Positions 18,092 to 36,141 of a stretch of DNA of 37,052 nucleotides are shown piece by piece. The DNA comes from an uncultured Lachnospiraceae bacterium (GTDB lineage Bacteria; Bacillota; Clostridia; Lachnospirales; Lachnospiraceae). The position numbers and the translations under genes are program-made. The notes under the pieces are model-generated. The model saw only the letters and a program-made list of their open reading frames with translations. It did not search any database and was not told the DNA's origin. Each line of letters opens with the position of its first letter. Position 1 is the stretch's first letter. The stretch covers positions 1-37,052 of the forward strand of contig CACZLA010000025.1 in the NCBI GenBank assembly GCA_902781895.1. Reading direction: 5' to 3'.

Positions 18092-21013
18092 TTATCCGGC
18101 CCAGTATCCATGCGTATCAAAGTAATACCAGCTTCCGTTGATTTTCTGCCACTGTCCGCAGGCATACCAACCGCTCGTATCACCAAACCACCAGCCTCCG
18201 GAACTGAGTCTCCAGGTACCTATTCCTTCATATGTCCAGGCACCGTTTGAATCAAGCCAGTAACCATCACGCCATTCATCAGCACACATATAACCGCTGG
18301 AATCAAAGAAGTACCATTTTCCGTCTATCTTCTGCCACTGATCATATGGATACCAGCCATTGGTATCTTCATACCACCAGCCTGTGGAATTACATTTCCA
18401 GGAGCCAACTCCGTCATAGGTACATTTTCCGTCAGCATCCAGCCAGTAACCACCTCTCCATTCATTTTTCGCATACTGTCCGGACTCATCTATATAGAAC
18501 CAGAATCCGTCTTTCTTGATCCATGTATTACGGGAACCGCTCGGAACCATTCCATCACCGCTGTCAGAATCTCCGTATTTTCCCGTTTCCGGATTAACTC
18601 CCACTGTAAATGTTTTACTCGCAGTAAGATCACCTTCATTTACAGTTGCCCTGATATCGGTATTTCCCTCTGCTACTGCAGTGATCATTCCGGATGTATT
18701 TACTGTTGCAACATTCTTTTTCGAACTATCCCAGGATAAGCAGTCCGGATCCGGGAGACAGTAAGTATATTCCCAGCCGGGATTTATAAAACCAAATGTT
18801 GCCTTTATTTTTGAACCCTCATGTACGTAATTGTTATCAAAGCCCAATTCACCCTTATACTTGTAGGTTTTATTATCACCGAATGAGAACACTACCCCCT
18901 CACCCGAAGCAGAAGCTTCGCCGAATTCGTCCATTGCAAGATATATCTTAACTGTCTTTTTTACATTTTGAGGTTTTGTTATATTGTCTCCGGTTTCAAG
19001 TCCGAAATCCTGAACCCAGTAATACTGATCATTATAGTAAAAGCATCCTATTCCGATATTTGTATAATTCGGGTCCAGAATATTTTCTTTATGACCTGTA
19101 GAATTCATCCACTGATCCATTACAGCTGCAGCAGTTGAACTGCCTACTGCTATATTTTCACCATAGGCCTTTCTGTAATGCGCATTGAAATACGAACCAT
19201 CAGGTCTGGTATGTGAGAAAAGGGCTGTAAGCTCCGCTGCACGTTCCATAGATAGGTTAAGAAGATCACTATCCATAACCAGAGCCGGAACACCTGCCGC
19301 TGCTCTCTTCTGATTTACAAGTGCCAGCACCTGATATGCAAGATCGTATTTGTTTTCTCCGGTAACATTTACTGCACTTTGTATCCTGAAGCCATTGAAA
19401 CCATATGGTTTTATCTTCGGATTGAGACAAGTTACCTTCGCATTATCATTAAATGCATATTCCGAAACAAATTCAACTGTAGCAGGAAGTGTGAAATCAT
19501 TACATCCCAGTCCCTGATTACAAACGATGGACTGACGGAATATTCTCTTTACATTATTAATACTAAGATTTTTAAGAGCATAACAATTCAGGAAACACTG
19601 AAATGGAATTTCCTCAACAGATGATGAAGTGAATGATTCCAGATTTGAACAGCATCCGAAACAGCCGACTCCTATCGTCTTTATATTACTCGGCAACATA
19701 ACCGTTTTAAGTGAAGTACAATATGCAAATGTATGTGCATCAAGCTCAGTAAGTGCACTTCCGAAATTAACAGTTTCAAGAGCAGAACAATCTCTGAACA
19801 TCTGATAGCTTGTTTTTGTAAATCCATTTCCGAAGGTTACACTTTTAAGATTCGGACATTTATAAAATGTAAAATACTCAACCTCTGTAACCGAGTCGGG
19901 AATTACAACACTTGTAATATTAGCCTCCTGGAATGCAGAAGATTCAAGAGTCTTTACTCCATTTAAATTAACAGTTTCAACCGGGGTATTTCTAAAAGCA
20001 CACTGGGCTATAGATGTCACGCCACTGCAGTTATAAGTTGTGCCCGCCTTATTCTGAGGATATCTGATAAGCTTCGTTCCGTCCTTTGAAAACAGAATTC
20101 CATCAACTGATTTATATGAAGGATTATCAGAAGCAACGTTAAAAGCCAACAACTCAGGATTATCAAAAAAAGCAAGTGTACTTATCTCTGTCAGGCTTTT
20201 AGGAACATTAAACTCTTTTAATGAAGTATTGGAAAATGCATAATCACCAACTGTTGTAACATTTCCCATGGTAACTTTCCCTAAACTGGAACAATAGCAA
20301 AGCATAGCCTGAGGTATAACAGTAACACCACTGGGAATATCAAGTTTTTCAAGACTCTTCATCTCATAAAAAGCTGCATCTCCAATAGTTTTAAGATTCG
20401 AAGAAAGATCAATGAAGGAGCAGTTTTCAAGTCCGACAAAGGCATATGATCCTATACCGGTTATCTCATCACTCATCACAACATCGGTTACCTCTAAACG
20501 AATATCCTTCCAGGGAGTATCAGCATAATAATTATAATATTCGTCCTTTGTATATTCATAATCCGGAATATCCCCTGATCCTTCAAATGCAAGGATTCCA
20601 TCCTTGAAGTTTGCCGTTATCGTATCAGTAACTTTATATGAATATTCATTGGACGGTGAGTCGGATATCAGAGGCTTTTCTTCTTCTATAAATAACTCTG
20701 ATGCGTCACCATCTGTGGCGTAATCTGAATCATCAGATGAACTTTCGTTTAACTCTACAGACGACATCCCTAATAATTCCAGATTGAATTCTCCGCAGGG
20801 TAAGCCCTCTTCATCATTCAATTCATAATAATCCGGTTCCTGATCACTATCATAGGAAATGTTTGATTCTCCTACAGATTTTGCAGTACAACAGTCGGAT
20901 GTATCGGTCTTTTTCGCAGTACCCGCACCTGATGCATCAACCCCGGTGGCACTAATGCCACATAGTAAAAGTGTACTAAGGGACATTGCTATAGTCCTTC
21001 TGAATTTCATCAT
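18092..21013 (-). CDS. Secreted BspA-type LRR protein with CAP, Ig-like and cell-wall-binding repeats
   Basis: The 973-residue protein is built for display on the cell surface. Order: signal peptide (about 1-27, MSLSTLLLCGISATGVDASG); an acidic, Ser/Asp-rich region to ~125; BspA-type leucine-rich repeats (~185-545, with repeated 'IGSYAF', 'IGDAAF', 'VGDYAF' cores); a CAP/SCP domain (~555-670, with VNQKRAAAGVPAL, HTRPDGSYF, YGENIAVG, WMNSTGHKENIL); a Big_2-like Ig domain (~735-805, VATVNTSGMITAVAEGNTDI); and tryptophan-rich choline-binding-type repeats (~825-973, GWWYEDTNGWYPYDQWQ). The repeats would hold it to the wall non-covalently; there is no sortase signal. RBS GAGGGGG, 14 nt after the reductase gene. 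Ligand or adhesion role is inferred from families. Confidence 0.92.
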   Translation of the reverse strand: MMKFRRTIAMSLSTLLLCGISATGVDASGAGTAKKTDTSDCCTAKSVGESNISYDSDQEPDYYELNDEEGLPCGEFNLELLGMSSVELNESSSDDSDYATDGDASELFIEEEKPLISDSPSNEYSYKVTDTITANFKDGILAFEGSGDIPDYEYTKDEYYNYYADTPWKDIRLEVTDVVMSDEITGIGSYAFVGLENCSFIDLSSNLKTIGDAAFYEMKSLEKLDIPSGVTVIPQAMLCYCSSLGKVTMGNVTTVGDYAFSNTSLKEFNVPKSLTEISTLAFFDNPELLAFNVASDNPSYKSVDGILFSKDGTKLIRYPQNKAGTTYNCSGVTSIAQCAFRNTPVETVNLNGVKTLESSAFQEANITSVVIPDSVTEVEYFTFYKCPNLKSVTFGNGFTKTSYQMFRDCSALETVNFGSALTELDAHTFAYCTSLKTVMLPSNIKTIGVGCFGCCSNLESFTSSSVEEIPFQCFLNCYALKNLSINNVKRIFRQSIVCNQGLGCNDFTLPATVEFVSEYAFNDNAKVTCLNPKIKPYGFNGFRIQSAVNVTGENKYDLAYQVLALVNQKRAAAGVPALVMDSDLLNLSMERAAELTALFSHTRPDGSYFNAHYRKAYGENIAVGSSTAAAVMDQWMNSTGHKENILDPNYTNIGIGCFYYNDQYYWVQDFGLETGDNITKPQNVKKTVKIYLAMDEFGEASASGEGVVFSFGDNKTYKYKGELGFDNNYVHEGSKIKATFGFINPGWEYTYCLPDPDCLSWDSSKKNVATVNTSGMITAVAEGNTDIRATVNEGDLTASKTFTVGVNPETGKYGDSDSGDGMVPSGSRNTWIKKDGFWFYIDESGQYAKNEWRGGYWLDADGKCTYDGVGSWKCNSTGWWYEDTNGWYPYDQWQKIDGKWYFFDSSGYMCADEWRDGYWLDSNGAWTYEGIGTWRLSSGGWWFGDTSGWYACGQWQKINGSWYYFDTHGYWAG

Positions 21014-32775: not shown

Positions 32776-32820
32776 CAAATCCGAAATAACATATTCTGCT
32801 TGAAACATTCAGAATGACAT
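32751..32820. repeat. Dispersed 'SERNEES'-type repeat between convergent genes
   Basis: The stretch includes AAGATTCTTCGTTTCGCTCA and two copies of TCAGAATGACA (32767 and 32809, 42 nt apart). On the minus strand it can be read as CHSERNEESF, a sequence I recognise from intergenic repeats scattered in many bacterial genomes. It lies between the 3' ends of the symporter and the GTPase-NYN gene and overlaps both, giving each its stop codon: GAA TGA on plus, TTC TGA on minus. Only this copy cluster is seen in the window. Confidence 0.7.
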
Positions 32821-35610
32821 ACCAAGGGCTGACTTTCTGCACTGTGTAACGTCCCGCTCCAGATCACCTGCTGTCATCAGACGGGTATTCTCTCCTCTTA
32901 TGATCAGCTGTATCATCCCATCTGAGGTTGCAACCGTTATATCCAGATTCTTCGCGTTCTTCAGCGTGAATCTGGCAATATACTGGTCTGCTGTCTCAGC
33001 TTCTTTAGTGTAAACCACATGTACTCCCATATAGTCCATCTTTTCAGTAAAATGGCCTCTAACGTTATACGCATCGAATACAACTATTATCTCCGTATCC
33101 TTCAGCACTCTATACTCGGACATTATATCCAGAAGCTTAAATCTCGCCGATTCCAGATCTATGGACTGTTTATCGCCTGAGGTAACATTTCCTGTTTCCT
33201 CATCAGTAAGAAGTCCCTTCAGACTCTTCCATGCATGTATTATGTTATAACCATCAACAAGGAGATACTTCTCCTTATCAGCTTTATTTTTTGTTTTTAC
33301 TCCTGATGCCTTATCTCCGGTGGTTTGTGAGCTACCACTTGAACCGGAGCTTTTTCTCATATCTGCCACAACACGGTTTCTTGTCAGATAAACTCTTTTC
33401 GTTTTCTTATCACTTCCGGCATTTGCGTGAGTTGTGCTTCTCAGAATATCATCTATCTCATCCGTTCCGATAGCTTCAAATCTTTCTTCAAAGGAACCAC
33501 CGGACTCATTCTTTTTCTTCTCTGCTGCAGCCTTTACAAGTTCAGCCTCAGCAAGAAGCCTCTCCTCGTCACTCAATTCATCAGTTTCAAAGAAGTCTGC
33601 CTCTCTTTTGGGAAGATGCATCAGCTCTTCGCTTTCAAACCATGGAACATAGTAGCCGGCACCATGTTCTATAAACACACTACCCGACAGGTTATTCTTA
33701 TCATTATCAGGATCATAACCCGATGCAGCTATCATCTCATCTGCAGTATCCTCAGGACACTCTCTGTATCCGGAAAGTCTCATATCTACACTTCCTCTTC
33801 CGGAGGTATACTGAGTAAGCTTTGTCTGATAATCCGACACCAGCCGTGCAGGTGCATCACCCACAAGTGTAGCCATCTGTATTCCATTTATCTCTCTCTG
33901 ATTTTCAGTAGTCAGATTTCCGCCCATCTGGGTTATATCATTCATCGCCCTTCCAACCATTTCAGCCGGGAGCTGGATCACAAGGCTCATTACAGGTTCA
34001 AGCAGAACATTTTCAGCCTTCATAAGTCCCTGACGAACAGCCCTTCTTACTGACTCCCTGAAATCCTGACTGTCAGTATGCTTCAGATGTGATTTCCCGT
34101 TTATAAGGGTAAATCTGATATCCGCAAGTGCAGAACCGGTAAGCACTCCCACAGGAAGGTCATTTGACAAGGTGGAAAGTATGGTTTTCTGCCAGTTGAT
34201 ACTCAGTTCATTTACGCTGAGCGCACTTGCAATCTCTATACCTGTTCCCCGGGGAATAGGCTCCATAAGTATCTGAACCTCAGCATAGTGTCTCAGGGGT
34301 TCAAAATGTCCGTAACCTATAACCGGGGAAGATATGGTTTCTTTCATTATGATACCTGCAGGGGCAAAACTAACCTTGACTCCGCATCTGTCCAGTATCA
34401 TAGACTTTAATATTTCAAGCTGAAACTCTCCCATAACTGATATGGTTATCTGTTCCTTCTCGGAAATTTCCATATATAGTAATGGATTCTCAGCTACCAG
34501 TTCTCTGAATTTCGGGATGAATACTCTCGGTGCAGTATCTATGGGAAGGATAATATCATATCTGAGAACAGGCTGGCACATAGCTCTTCTGTCGTCTATC
34601 TCAACGCCAATACCCATTCCGGTATAAGCTGAGTCAAGTCCCACAAGTGCCACAACATCTCCGGCCTCAGCCTTCTGTATACTTTCAAACTTACCACCAC
34701 TGTAAAGCCTTATCTGGCTTATCTTTTCTTCATCATCCTCCGTAACCTTTACACTTTCACGAACAACTATCTCTCCGCCTGTTATCTTTGTAAATGCTAT
34801 CTTATGCCCATCCTCGTAGCTGAGTCTGTATACCTTTGCAGCAAAGCTGTCTCTATAAGATATTTCCGGAATAAGTTCTGTAAAAATGCGGACAAATGTA
34901 TCCACACCGCTGTTTTTAAGTGCAGAGCCAAATAGTACCGGCCTTAGCTTTCTTCCATATACGAGTGCTTTTATATCATCTACGGAAATCTCACCCGTTT
35001 CCAGGAATCTCTCTATGGTATCCTCAGAAAGGGAAGCTATCTCTTCTTTTGTCCCATCATCAAACATTTCTGATATAGTTATTTCAGATATAGCTCCATC
35101 CGAACCGGAAGCAGCAGAAAAATCCACAAATCCTTCCCCCAGTTCATTCAGTTCCCCCATCAGTTCATCTAACTGTCTTTCGCACATATCCATTTTATTG
35201 ACAAACACAAAGAAGGGAACCTTATATGCCTCAAGCATTGAGTAAAGCCTTCTCGTAGATGCGGTAACTCCATCCGGGCCGCTTACCAGAAGAACCGCCA
35301 CATCCAGAATGGAAAGAGCTCTCTCTGTCTCGCCGATAAAATCAGTATGTCCCGGTGTGTCTATGATGGTAATCCTTACATCGTCCCCCGAAGAATTAAG
35401 TTCACTGTCGGAAGACATATCAATAACAGCCTGCTTGGAAAGAATCGTTACACCACGTTTCTTCTCCAGTTCCTCAGTGTCGAGAAATGCATTTCCGTCA
35501 TCCACACGACCTGCAGACCTTATCATTCCCGTATTAAATAATATACTTTCAGTCAGGGTTGTCTTTCCTGCATCAACGTGAGCAAGAATACCCATGGTTA
35601 TCTTTTTCAA
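32809..35610 (-). CDS. EF-G/TetM-like translational GTPase fused to a YacP/Rae1-type NYN nuclease
   Basis: Residues ~1-640 of 933 are a ribosomal-protection/EF-G-like factor: G1 AHVDAGKTTLTES, G3 DTPGHTDF (~83), G4 NKMD (~137), then domains II-V with MGEFQLEIL and LLEPVMSLVIQLP. The domain IV tip reads NGKSHLKHTDSQ, closer to EF-G (YHDVDS) than to the YSPVS loop of TetM. A charged linker (~660-775) leads to a NYN domain (~780-925): LLVDGYNII, IIVVFDAYNVRG, YTKEAETADQYIA and VATSDG retain the acidic residues expected for Rae1, which cuts mRNA in the ribosomal A site. The TTG start is backed by GAGGTG. The last residues and stop lie in the repeat. Ribosome-directed mRNA cleavage is inferred; drug resistance is unproven. 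Confidence 0.92.
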   Translation of the reverse strand: MKKITMGILAHVDAGKTTLTESILFNTGMIRSAGRVDDGNAFLDTEELEKKRGVTILSKQAVIDMSSDSELNSSGDDVRITIIDTPGHTDFIGETERALSILDVAVLLVSGPDGVTASTRRLYSMLEAYKVPFFVFVNKMDMCERQLDELMGELNELGEGFVDFSAASGSDGAISEITISEMFDDGTKEEIASLSEDTIERFLETGEISVDDIKALVYGRKLRPVLFGSALKNSGVDTFVRIFTELIPEISYRDSFAAKVYRLSYEDGHKIAFTKITGGEIVVRESVKVTEDDEEKISQIRLYSGGKFESIQKAEAGDVVALVGLDSAYTGMGIGVEIDDRRAMCQPVLRYDIILPIDTAPRVFIPKFRELVAENPLLYMEISEKEQITISVMGEFQLEILKSMILDRCGVKVSFAPAGIIMKETISSPVIGYGHFEPLRHYAEVQILMEPIPRGTGIEIASALSVNELSINWQKTILSTLSNDLPVGVLTGSALADIRFTLINGKSHLKHTDSQDFRESVRRAVRQGLMKAENVLLEPVMSLVIQLPAEMVGRAMNDITQMGGNLTTENQREINGIQMATLVGDAPARLVSDYQTKLTQYTSGRGSVDMRLSGYRECPEDTADEMIAASGYDPDNDKNNLSGSVFIEHGAGYYVPWFESEELMHLPKREADFFETDELSDEERLLAEAELVKAAAEKKKNESGGSFEERFEAIGTDEIDDILRSTTHANAGSDKKTKRVYLTRNRVVADMRKSSGSSGSSQTTGDKASGVKTKNKADKEKYLLVDGYNIIHAWKSLKGLLTDEETGNVTSGDKQSIDLESARFKLLDIMSEYRVLKDTEIIVVFDAYNVRGHFTEKMDYMGVHVVYTKEAETADQYIARFTLKNAKNLDITVATSDGMIQLIIRGENTRLMTAGDLERDVTQCRKSALGMSF

Positions 35611-35675
35611 ACAAACACCTCATCTGTTATCTCGAGTTTCTTCTCCTAAAAGAGAAAGCTATAATTTATTGACAT

Positions 35676-35710
35676 AATTTAAAGACGGCTCTGCATACAC
35701 AGAACCGTCT
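35676..35710 (-). terminator. Terminator of mscL
   Basis: Minus strand AGACGGTTCTG pairs with CAGAGCCGTCT (one wobble, 6-nt loop), followed by TTTAAATTAT. It lies 20 nt after the mscL stop. The T tract is weak. Confidence 0.65.
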
Positions 35711-35730
35711 GAATAACATTTGATTTAACT

Positions 35731-36141
35731 TTACTCTCTGATATCTCCTGTACAGCAAGGACATTTTATAGCCTTAATATCAATCTCTGAACAGCAAAGA
35801 GGACACTTCTTTGTAAGAGGCTCTGTCTCTTCTTCTTTCTTCTTACGTGCATTCAGAAGCTTGTTCATAGCTTTCAACATCAGGAACAAAACAAATGCCA
35901 AAATGATGAAGTTAATAATAGCCATGATGAATGCGCCGATACCGAGCTCTGCCTTCCAGATAGTGATGGTCCAGCCTTCAAGTCCGCCGGTTGCGAAACA
36001 TCCGATGATAGGATTGATGATATAATCAGTAAGTGCGCTTATGATAGAAGCAAATGCACCACCGATGATAACACCGATAGCCATATCCATGACATTTCCC
36101 TTTAGAGCGAATTCTTTAAATTCAGCAATAAATTTCTTCAA
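35731..36141 (-). CDS. mscL: Large-conductance mechanosensitive channel MscL with zinc-ribbon tail
   Basis: MscL is a pentameric pore that opens under membrane tension to release solutes on osmotic downshock. The 136-residue protein starts KKFIAEFKEFALKGNVMDMA and has the pore helix GVIIGGAFASIISALTDYI, a periplasmic loop, and helix TM2 (IMAIINFIILAFVLFLMLKA). The C-terminal helix (KLLNARKKKEE) is followed by CPLCCSEIDIKAIKCPCCTG, two Cys pairs that look like a zinc ribbon; this is an added module beyond the basic channel. The frame opens at a TTG at 36141; no SD is seen in the ~20-nt leader after the predicted promoter, so the start is less certain than the identity. Confidence 0.93.
   Translation of the reverse strand: MKKFIAEFKEFALKGNVMDMAIGVIIGGAFASIISALTDYIINPIIGCFATGGLEGWTITIWKAELGIGAFIMAIINFIILAFVLFLMLKAMNKLLNARKKKEEETEPLTKKCPLCCSEIDIKAIKCPCCTGDIRE

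Follow-up and report, generated by a model that had tools for sequence, protein, structure and literature searches.

A translational GTPase fused to a Rae1-type nuclease domain is common in Lachnospiraceae and appears to take the place of free Rae1

Introduction

What would a protein do that joins a translational GTPase to a Rae1-type nuclease domain, and is the join itself genuine? The question is raised by a gene on the minus strand (32809..35610) of a 37,052-nucleotide stretch of DNA from an uncultured Lachnospiraceae bacterium (contig CACZLA010000025.1 of assembly GCA_902781895.1; the whole stretch is hereafter the window). A preliminary description of the window proposed an EF-G/TetM-like GTPase fused to a nuclease that would detect stalled ribosomes and cut the message. 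Rae1 is reported to be an A-site mRNA nuclease (PMC6613710, PMC10100781, PMC12320835). The fusion architecture is not new, having been published in 2015: the accessible part of Atkinson 2015 (PMC4342817) describes Tet proteins of ten Clostridiales species that have gained a YacP-like NYN RNase domain, with a possible part in resistance. From the comparisons below, we lean towards reading the window protein as this organism's form of Rae1, one that is permanently attached to a translational GTPase and cuts mRNA on ribosomes.

Domain structure

The open reading frame (ORF) described earlier is present as a single frame of 933 residues, and lies on the minus strand. Its features are as follows.

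32809..35610, minus strand: whole gene, a translational GTPase-linker-NYN fusion of 933 residues with a TTG start (ORF reading, Pfam, homologues)
35616..35621, minus strand: Shine-Dalgarno-like GAGGTG, 5 nucleotides before the TTG start (by eye)
34867..35601, minus strand: GTPase (G) domain, residues 4-248 (Pfam GTP_EFTU PF00009, E 3e-49; alignment)
34012..34353, minus strand: EF-G-like domain IV, residues 420-533, with the signature GHFEPLRHYAEV and loop III (Pfam EFG_IV PF03764; conservation)
34075..34089, minus strand: tip of domain IV loop III, H-L-K-H-T, residues 508-512 (TetM match, alignment)
33736..34008, minus strand: EF-G-like domain V, residues 535-625 (Pfam EFG_C PF00679)
33607..33693, minus strand: C-terminal extension GSVFxxHGAGxxVPWxExxxxMH, residues 640-668 (alignment)
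33274..33606, minus strand: variable linker, residues 669-779 (conservation, linker comparison, model)
33430..33459, minus strand: conserved linker motif EIDDILRSTT, residues 718-727 (family pattern)
32830..33264, minus strand: NYN_YacP (Rae1-type) nuclease domain, residues 783-927 (Pfam, solved relatives, Asp alignment)

The intact translational GTPase and EF-G-like domains noted in the preliminary description are borne out by the GTP_EFTU, EFG_IV, and EFG_C matches and by five intact motifs in the alignment (AHVDAGKT, RGVTI, DTPGH, NKMD, and GSAL); Pfam, alignment, and structural model agree on an EF-G domain layout, with no Pfam match for domain III in the window protein. The predicted structure of the whole chain has a mean predicted local distance difference test (pLDDT) score of 79, falling below 50 over residues 723-776, and a structure search with this model places the GTPase half near EF-G, TetM, and archaeal EF2 structures.

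The C-terminal end matches NYN_YacP (E 2e-35; 122.7 bits vs. a curated cut-off of 24.6), and its best solved relatives are the Bacillus subtilis YacP structures 5mq8 and 5mq9 (E 7e-14). The two proteins have the same NYN_YacP domain and the same four Asp; however, B. subtilis Rae1 is a free protein with a 181-residue chain, whereas the window version is fused to a GTPase and relocated. The Rae1 acidic set (Asp 786, 846, 875, and 897) is kept in 44/44 fused rows, window protein included, as the earlier description had noted for the window protein, and the GTPase motifs are kept in the fused rows shown in the alignment. Because both sets are kept, both activities look selected. The window NYN is the only YacP-type domain found in its genome (91.7% complete).

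The NYN domain is also matched by 12 phage records, all without annotation. Two phage contigs from human fecal samples, MT835514.1 and MT835563.1, carry NYN domains 47% and 45% identical to that of the window. PADLOC recognised neither the window protein nor the one separate GTPase and one free NYN protein submitted with it as part of a defence system.

Distribution of the fusion

An assembly join or a frameshift in the linker, named in the preliminary description as what would refute the fusion, can be ruled out: the Lachnospiraceae isolate AC2029 encodes a 985-residue fused copy with 65% identity, and the homologues sought across the family were found in one long frame in 79/100 genomes. This sample comprised 100 genomes of the window's own family, its own genome included. 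NYN_YacP was detected in 89 of them (hand tally): 79 in a frame of at least 848 residues, three in broken fusions (a frameshift in G033; contig ends in G078 and G081), and seven as a free gene (G005, G017, G022, G043, G048, G054, and G082). Among the 79 long frames, 14 with flagged stops or odd frames were read, and all 14 hold both halves in one frame, including one that runs off the contig end (G008). The fusion is thus the usual form in the family sample, and no oddity.

Orthologues of the GTPase half were identified with a profile, A1, built from 23 fused GTPases, and were found in 87/100 family genomes. Both domains occur in 87 genomes, NYN alone in two (G005 and G054), GTPase alone in none, and neither in 11, a co-occurrence with a Fisher p of 5.5e-13 when relatedness is ignored. 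Up to 11 or 12 candidates per genome were scored in the family scans with A1 and with the tet_protect profile, and four in the class and phylum scans; since only some candidates were scored, absences in the A1 and tet_protect scans are soft. One fusion (G006) lay outside the listed matches of the tet_protect scan and was found by the NYN and A1 scans. Not counted as orthologous were G054 (451 bits) and five class genomes whose sole match scored 460-519 bits (G229 highest).

Across a class sample of 293 Clostridia genomes, NYN was found in 192 and the GTPase orthologue in 122; these and the following class counts were tallied by hand among the matches listed. The 122 orthologues divide into 97 fused-size frames, six broken fusions (G333, G271, G143, and G255 from listings; G161 and G288 read), and 19 separate genes, of which 13 occur with a free NYN and six without an NYN match. 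A fused-size frame is here one of 789 residues or more, a size criterion with frames read in part, and one such frame (G170) runs off its contig. Fusions span approximately 24 family codes of Clostridia. In a phylum sample scanned with the GTPase profile only, 22/299 genomes matched, 18 of them in frames of at least 857 residues. A strict co-dependence of GTPase and NYN was considered and rejected, being strong in the family sample but weak class-wide; each half is also found on its own.

A second GTPase orthologue fragment was seen at a contig end (C32) in G161, the genome of one of the broken fusions; it is a second copy or contamination.

Apparent replacement of the free rae1 gene

B. subtilis rae1 is reported to be co-transcribed with the rlmB homologue yacO (PMC6613710), and a similar arrangement holds for free NYN genes here: rlmB lies directly upstream at 19 of 23 free-NYN loci (6/7 free genes of the family sample are at this site), and the gene order, where the stretch shows it, is cysS-mrnC-(thyX)-rlmB-NYN-sigH. 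Gene names follow Pfam and an annotated C. difficile record, with sigH assigned from sigma-70 domains and position. At the 16 of the 23 loci that show rlmB, NYN, and sigH together, the rlmB-sigH gap is 526-738 nucleotides in 15 and 2287 in one.

The window's NYN domain is not encoded by a free gene of such a cysS-mrnC-rlmB-rae1-sigH operon; it is fused and located elsewhere. The site was inspected in 25 hand-picked fusion genomes, each with a single NYN match, and in none (0/25) did the stretch after rlmB hold an NYN gene. In 13 of these rlmB abuts sigH, with -56 to 86 nucleotides between them. One further genome (G289) has 591 nucleotides after rlmB without a convincing NYN trace; the best tblastn match there, over 29 residues, had E 7e-4. 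In the window genome, what comes after rlmB is an open start truncated by the contig end at 19 residues; it aligns to SigH starts better than 2000/2000 shuffles. The absence of free rae1 after rlmB, together with the 13 rlmB-sigH junctions, suggests that the fusion took the place of free Rae1; the same absence strengthens the Rae1 identity of the fused NYN domain. Four of the 11 family genomes with neither gene were also inspected, and two (G040 and G051) have rlmB next to sigH, which suggests a later loss of the fusion. In G064, a genome in which neither GTPase nor NYN was found, a uracil-DNA-glycosylase-like gene (L148, 831-1337) lies between rlmB and sigH, at the place of rae1.

The partners in this ancestral operon, mrnC (RNase III domain) and rlmB (23S methyltransferase), would also fit an alternative in which the fusion matures rRNA or tRNA, its nuclease being coupled to a GTPase of ribosome assembly or recycling, and does not target mRNA; a maturation role for YacP-like NYN proteins was proposed earlier, as cited in the accessible part of Atkinson 2015. 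However, the reported activity of B. subtilis Rae1 is endonucleolytic mRNA cleavage in the A site, and the fused gene has left the operon for sites without a conserved neighbourhood, the commonest neighbour family occurring at 7/44 fusion loci (2-4 kb flanks) and none at more. We consider maturation an unlikely role, and favour a tethered Rae1 that acts on mRNA.

Phylogeny of the GTPase half

The best solved relative of the GTPase half is TetM (3j9y; E 2e-66, residues 1-616), and TetM and TetO resemble it in GTPase and EF-G-like domains; they differ in having no nuclease and another loop III tip. EF-G shares the domain layout, the fold, and the His of the loop III tip; however, the protein scores 240.6 bits vs. 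a cut-off of 659.4 on the EF-G equivalog profile, and 379.4 bits vs. 775 on tet_protect. In a GTPase tree of 75 rows (quick search, with support from the Shimodaira-Hasegawa-like approximate likelihood ratio test, SH-aLRT, only), a 65-row clade of fused and separate GTPases is separated with SH-aLRT 100 from the Tet, Tet-like, and EF-G rows. Within it, the fused GTPases (44 and two broken) group at 93 and the separate ones, as one group, at 50; the window protein sits on a long branch. Two sequences were left out of trees, L091 for an internal stop and L131 as a duplicate of G005. The EF-G/TetM-like GTPase of the preliminary description therefore holds as a statement of relatedness, but profile cut-offs, tree, and domain IV loop all speak against membership in either EF-G or Tet.

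Features of the sequence itself follow the same division. The domain IV tip of the clade is H-x-K-H-T, as compared with Y-S-P-V-S in three Tet rows and H-E-V-D-S in three EF-G rows. His 508 is present in 42/44 fused and 19/19 separate rows, Lys 510 in 43/44 and 19/19, and His 511 and Thr 512 in all fused (44) and all separate (19) rows. Pro509 of TetM, which is reported to overlap bound tetracycline from the tip of domain IV (PMC7456112), aligns with Lys 510; the three Tet rows have Pro. The C-terminal extension (GSVFCxHGAG...W...MH) is common to fused and separate clade members, whereas none of the Tet, Tet-like, and EF-G rows compared has it. That the clade lies apart from Tet and EF-G is new relative to the 2015 description, as are the Lys at the Pro509 position and the apparent replacement of free Rae1. 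The architecture reported there is the same (a Tet-like translational GTPase with a C-terminal YacP-like NYN, in Clostridia); the accessible text counts the fusions as Tet, whereas here they form a clade of their own, have no Tet tip residue, and appear to stand in for a free rae1 gene.

These comparisons bear on the proposal of Atkinson 2015 that the fusion provides tetracycline-type ribosome protection with an added nuclease, the GTPase dislodging the drug and the nuclease acting on RNA. Tet proteins are indeed the best NCBIfam profile and the best Protein Data Bank match of the GTPase half, the accessible text of that paper files the fusions under Tet, and in a public Agathobacter record a fused protein carries the name of a TetM-family resistance protein. 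However, the tet_protect score (379 bits vs. 775), the Lys at the Pro509 position in 43/44 fused and 19/19 separate rows, the separate clade, and the occurrence as a common single gene, in one long frame in 79/100 family genomes, make tetracycline resistance unlikely as the main job; protection aided by a nuclease is quite improbable, and a tethered Rae1 remains our preference. A tet gene above cut-off occurs in 12/100 family genomes, all 12 of which also have the fusion; the two are therefore not mutually exclusive.

The record in question (L270, 1628-4429 of NZ_CP143948.1) is an Agathobacter rectalis fused protein publicly named a TetM-family tetracycline resistance protein, likely a misannotation; such labels on fusion members could inflate resistome counts. 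A 641-residue Tet-like GTPase without the signature (L060, 3831-5756) was observed in G054, a genome with free rae1 in which no orthologue of the fusion GTPase was found; its neighbour in the GTPase tree is a row from G310, both on long branches.

The linker and its motif

Across 59 fusions the linker is 65-255 residues long (median 79) and otherwise unconserved, the commonest residue occurring in 18% of rows on average over positions 721-780. Within it lies a family motif, E-L/I-x-x-I-F-x-R-T-Y/F, often followed by G-P-I/V-K/R. Among 60 fusions from sampled genomes and named contigs, between which overlap is possible, 56 carry the motif by pattern and three by eye (L090, L193, and L070); it is degenerate in L048. 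The pattern is matched by 4/2800 shuffled linkers and by 2/68 unfused rows, both of which are halves of the contig-split fusion G078. No Pfam family covers the motif, and no mention of it was found in the accessible text of the literature searched. The motif thus appears, on conservation, to be under selection, and is a new observation that may point to an interaction partner.

These data also bear on whether the two halves work together. The protein might instead be a translation factor, for anti-stalling or backup translocation, with a nuclease merely co-expressed by fusion and the halves independent. The length and variability of the linker would suit this alternative, as would the existence of GTPase-only members and a tip His as in EF-G rows. 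However, a near-universal motif inside the linker speaks for retention of the covalent linkage itself, as does the lack of free rae1 in the fusion genomes inspected. We regard independent halves as rather unlikely, and return to the reading of a Rae1 tethered to its GTPase.

Proposed function

As a tethered Rae1, the protein would bind the ribosomal factor site through its GTPase half and insert domain IV into the A site, in the manner of TetM and EF-G. Once GTP is hydrolysed and domain IV pulls back, an A-site codon would be left free for the tethered NYN domain, which would enter and cut the mRNA; domain IV and the nuclease would act in turn, because both hardly fit the A site at the same moment. 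The truncated complex could then be rescued by transfer-messenger RNA (tmRNA) and SmpB. The gain over free Rae1 would likely be a GTP-gated nuclease at high local concentration on ribosomes with a lasting empty A site, and the linker motif probably serves as an additional contact with the ribosome or a partner. The detection of stalled or drug-blocked ribosomes, the A-site cutting by the fusion, and the hand-off to tmRNA, all put forward in the preliminary description, are inferences.

More tentatively, the fusion may be a GTP-gated A-site quality-control enzyme of Clostridia, in which the His-x-Lys-His-Thr tip probes an empty A site and hands over to the tethered Rae1, with the linker docking on the ribosome or a rescue factor. 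To our knowledge, other translational GTPases bring a tRNA, a release factor, or a drug-displacing loop to the ribosome; if the surveillance reading is true, this would be the first to bring a nuclease. A form with a built-in ribosome-binding GTPase makes the question of how free Rae1 selects ribosomes testable in one protein, from a family widespread in Clostridia and carried by 79/100 genomes of one family. RelE-type toxins are small toxins with antitoxins and are not known to be fused to a GTPase. They are reported to cut mRNA in the A site (PMC12320835), and the fusion may be likened to them in this respect.

Several observations weigh against a tethered Rae1 that replaced the free one. 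Among the matches listed, 6/293 Clostridia genomes have the GTPase without any NYN match and 76/293 have NYN without the GTPase, and the co-occurrence of separate genes is weak (13/19 vs. 76/171; p 0.055, relatedness ignored). GTPase-only frames, judged within the frame, occur in contigs labelled Bifidobacterium, Collinsella, Intestinibacter bartlettii, and Neobacillus cucumis. The 11 family genomes with neither gene indicate that the fusion is dispensable. At the operon site, ten of the 25 fusion genomes showed no sigH adjacent to rlmB and attest only to the absence of rae1. One genome (G381) keeps the fusion and a free rae1 after rlmB, three (G219, G273, and G306) have two NYN matches each, and in an NYN tree (200 columns, bootstrap not settled) the fused NYNs are not one clade; together these make repeated fusion or splitting possible. 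The listed matches of the full-length model in the structure search cover the GTPase half only. The literature found holds no ribosome-binding, GTPase, or cleavage data for any fusion, and no functional study of it was found by a search that most subscription papers lay beyond.

Three of the GTPase-only frames (L199, L205, and L206; 695-741 residues, with the signature GHFEPLRHYAE) lie in contigs labelled Bifidobacterium and Collinsella; a transfer without the nuclease is possible.

Genomic context

The preliminary description also pointed to a tmRNA/SmpB/RNase R block near the gene. All three are present in the window, with tmRNA at 8.1 kb from the gene, about the distance then given, but RNase R at 4.9 kb (nearest edges), and the linkage is not conserved: in all 12 other genomes with both placed, over 50 kb separate RNase R and the fusion, and RNase R was not found at threshold in 1/14 genomes (G234). 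Given these distances, the neighbourhood in the window looks like chance.

A mobile resistance gene was likewise rejected, NYN matches in a plasmid collection being few (23 records, of which 20 were listed). Agathobacter and Monoglobus records hold fusions on replicons labelled plasmid. One C. difficile record labelled plasmid (L272, NZ_CP033217.1) shows a cysS-mrnC-thyX-rlmB-NYN-secE-nusG region, which is the ordinary rae1 operon, and is probably a mislabelled chromosomal piece.

Rfam gave four matches across the window and 10 fusion loci, none of which places a regulatory RNA at the window gene, and a promoter and terminator scan of 35560-35800 stayed at chance level. Elsewhere in the window, positions 18092-21013 encode a 973-residue protein with BspA-type leucine-rich repeats, a CAP domain, and choline-binding repeats.

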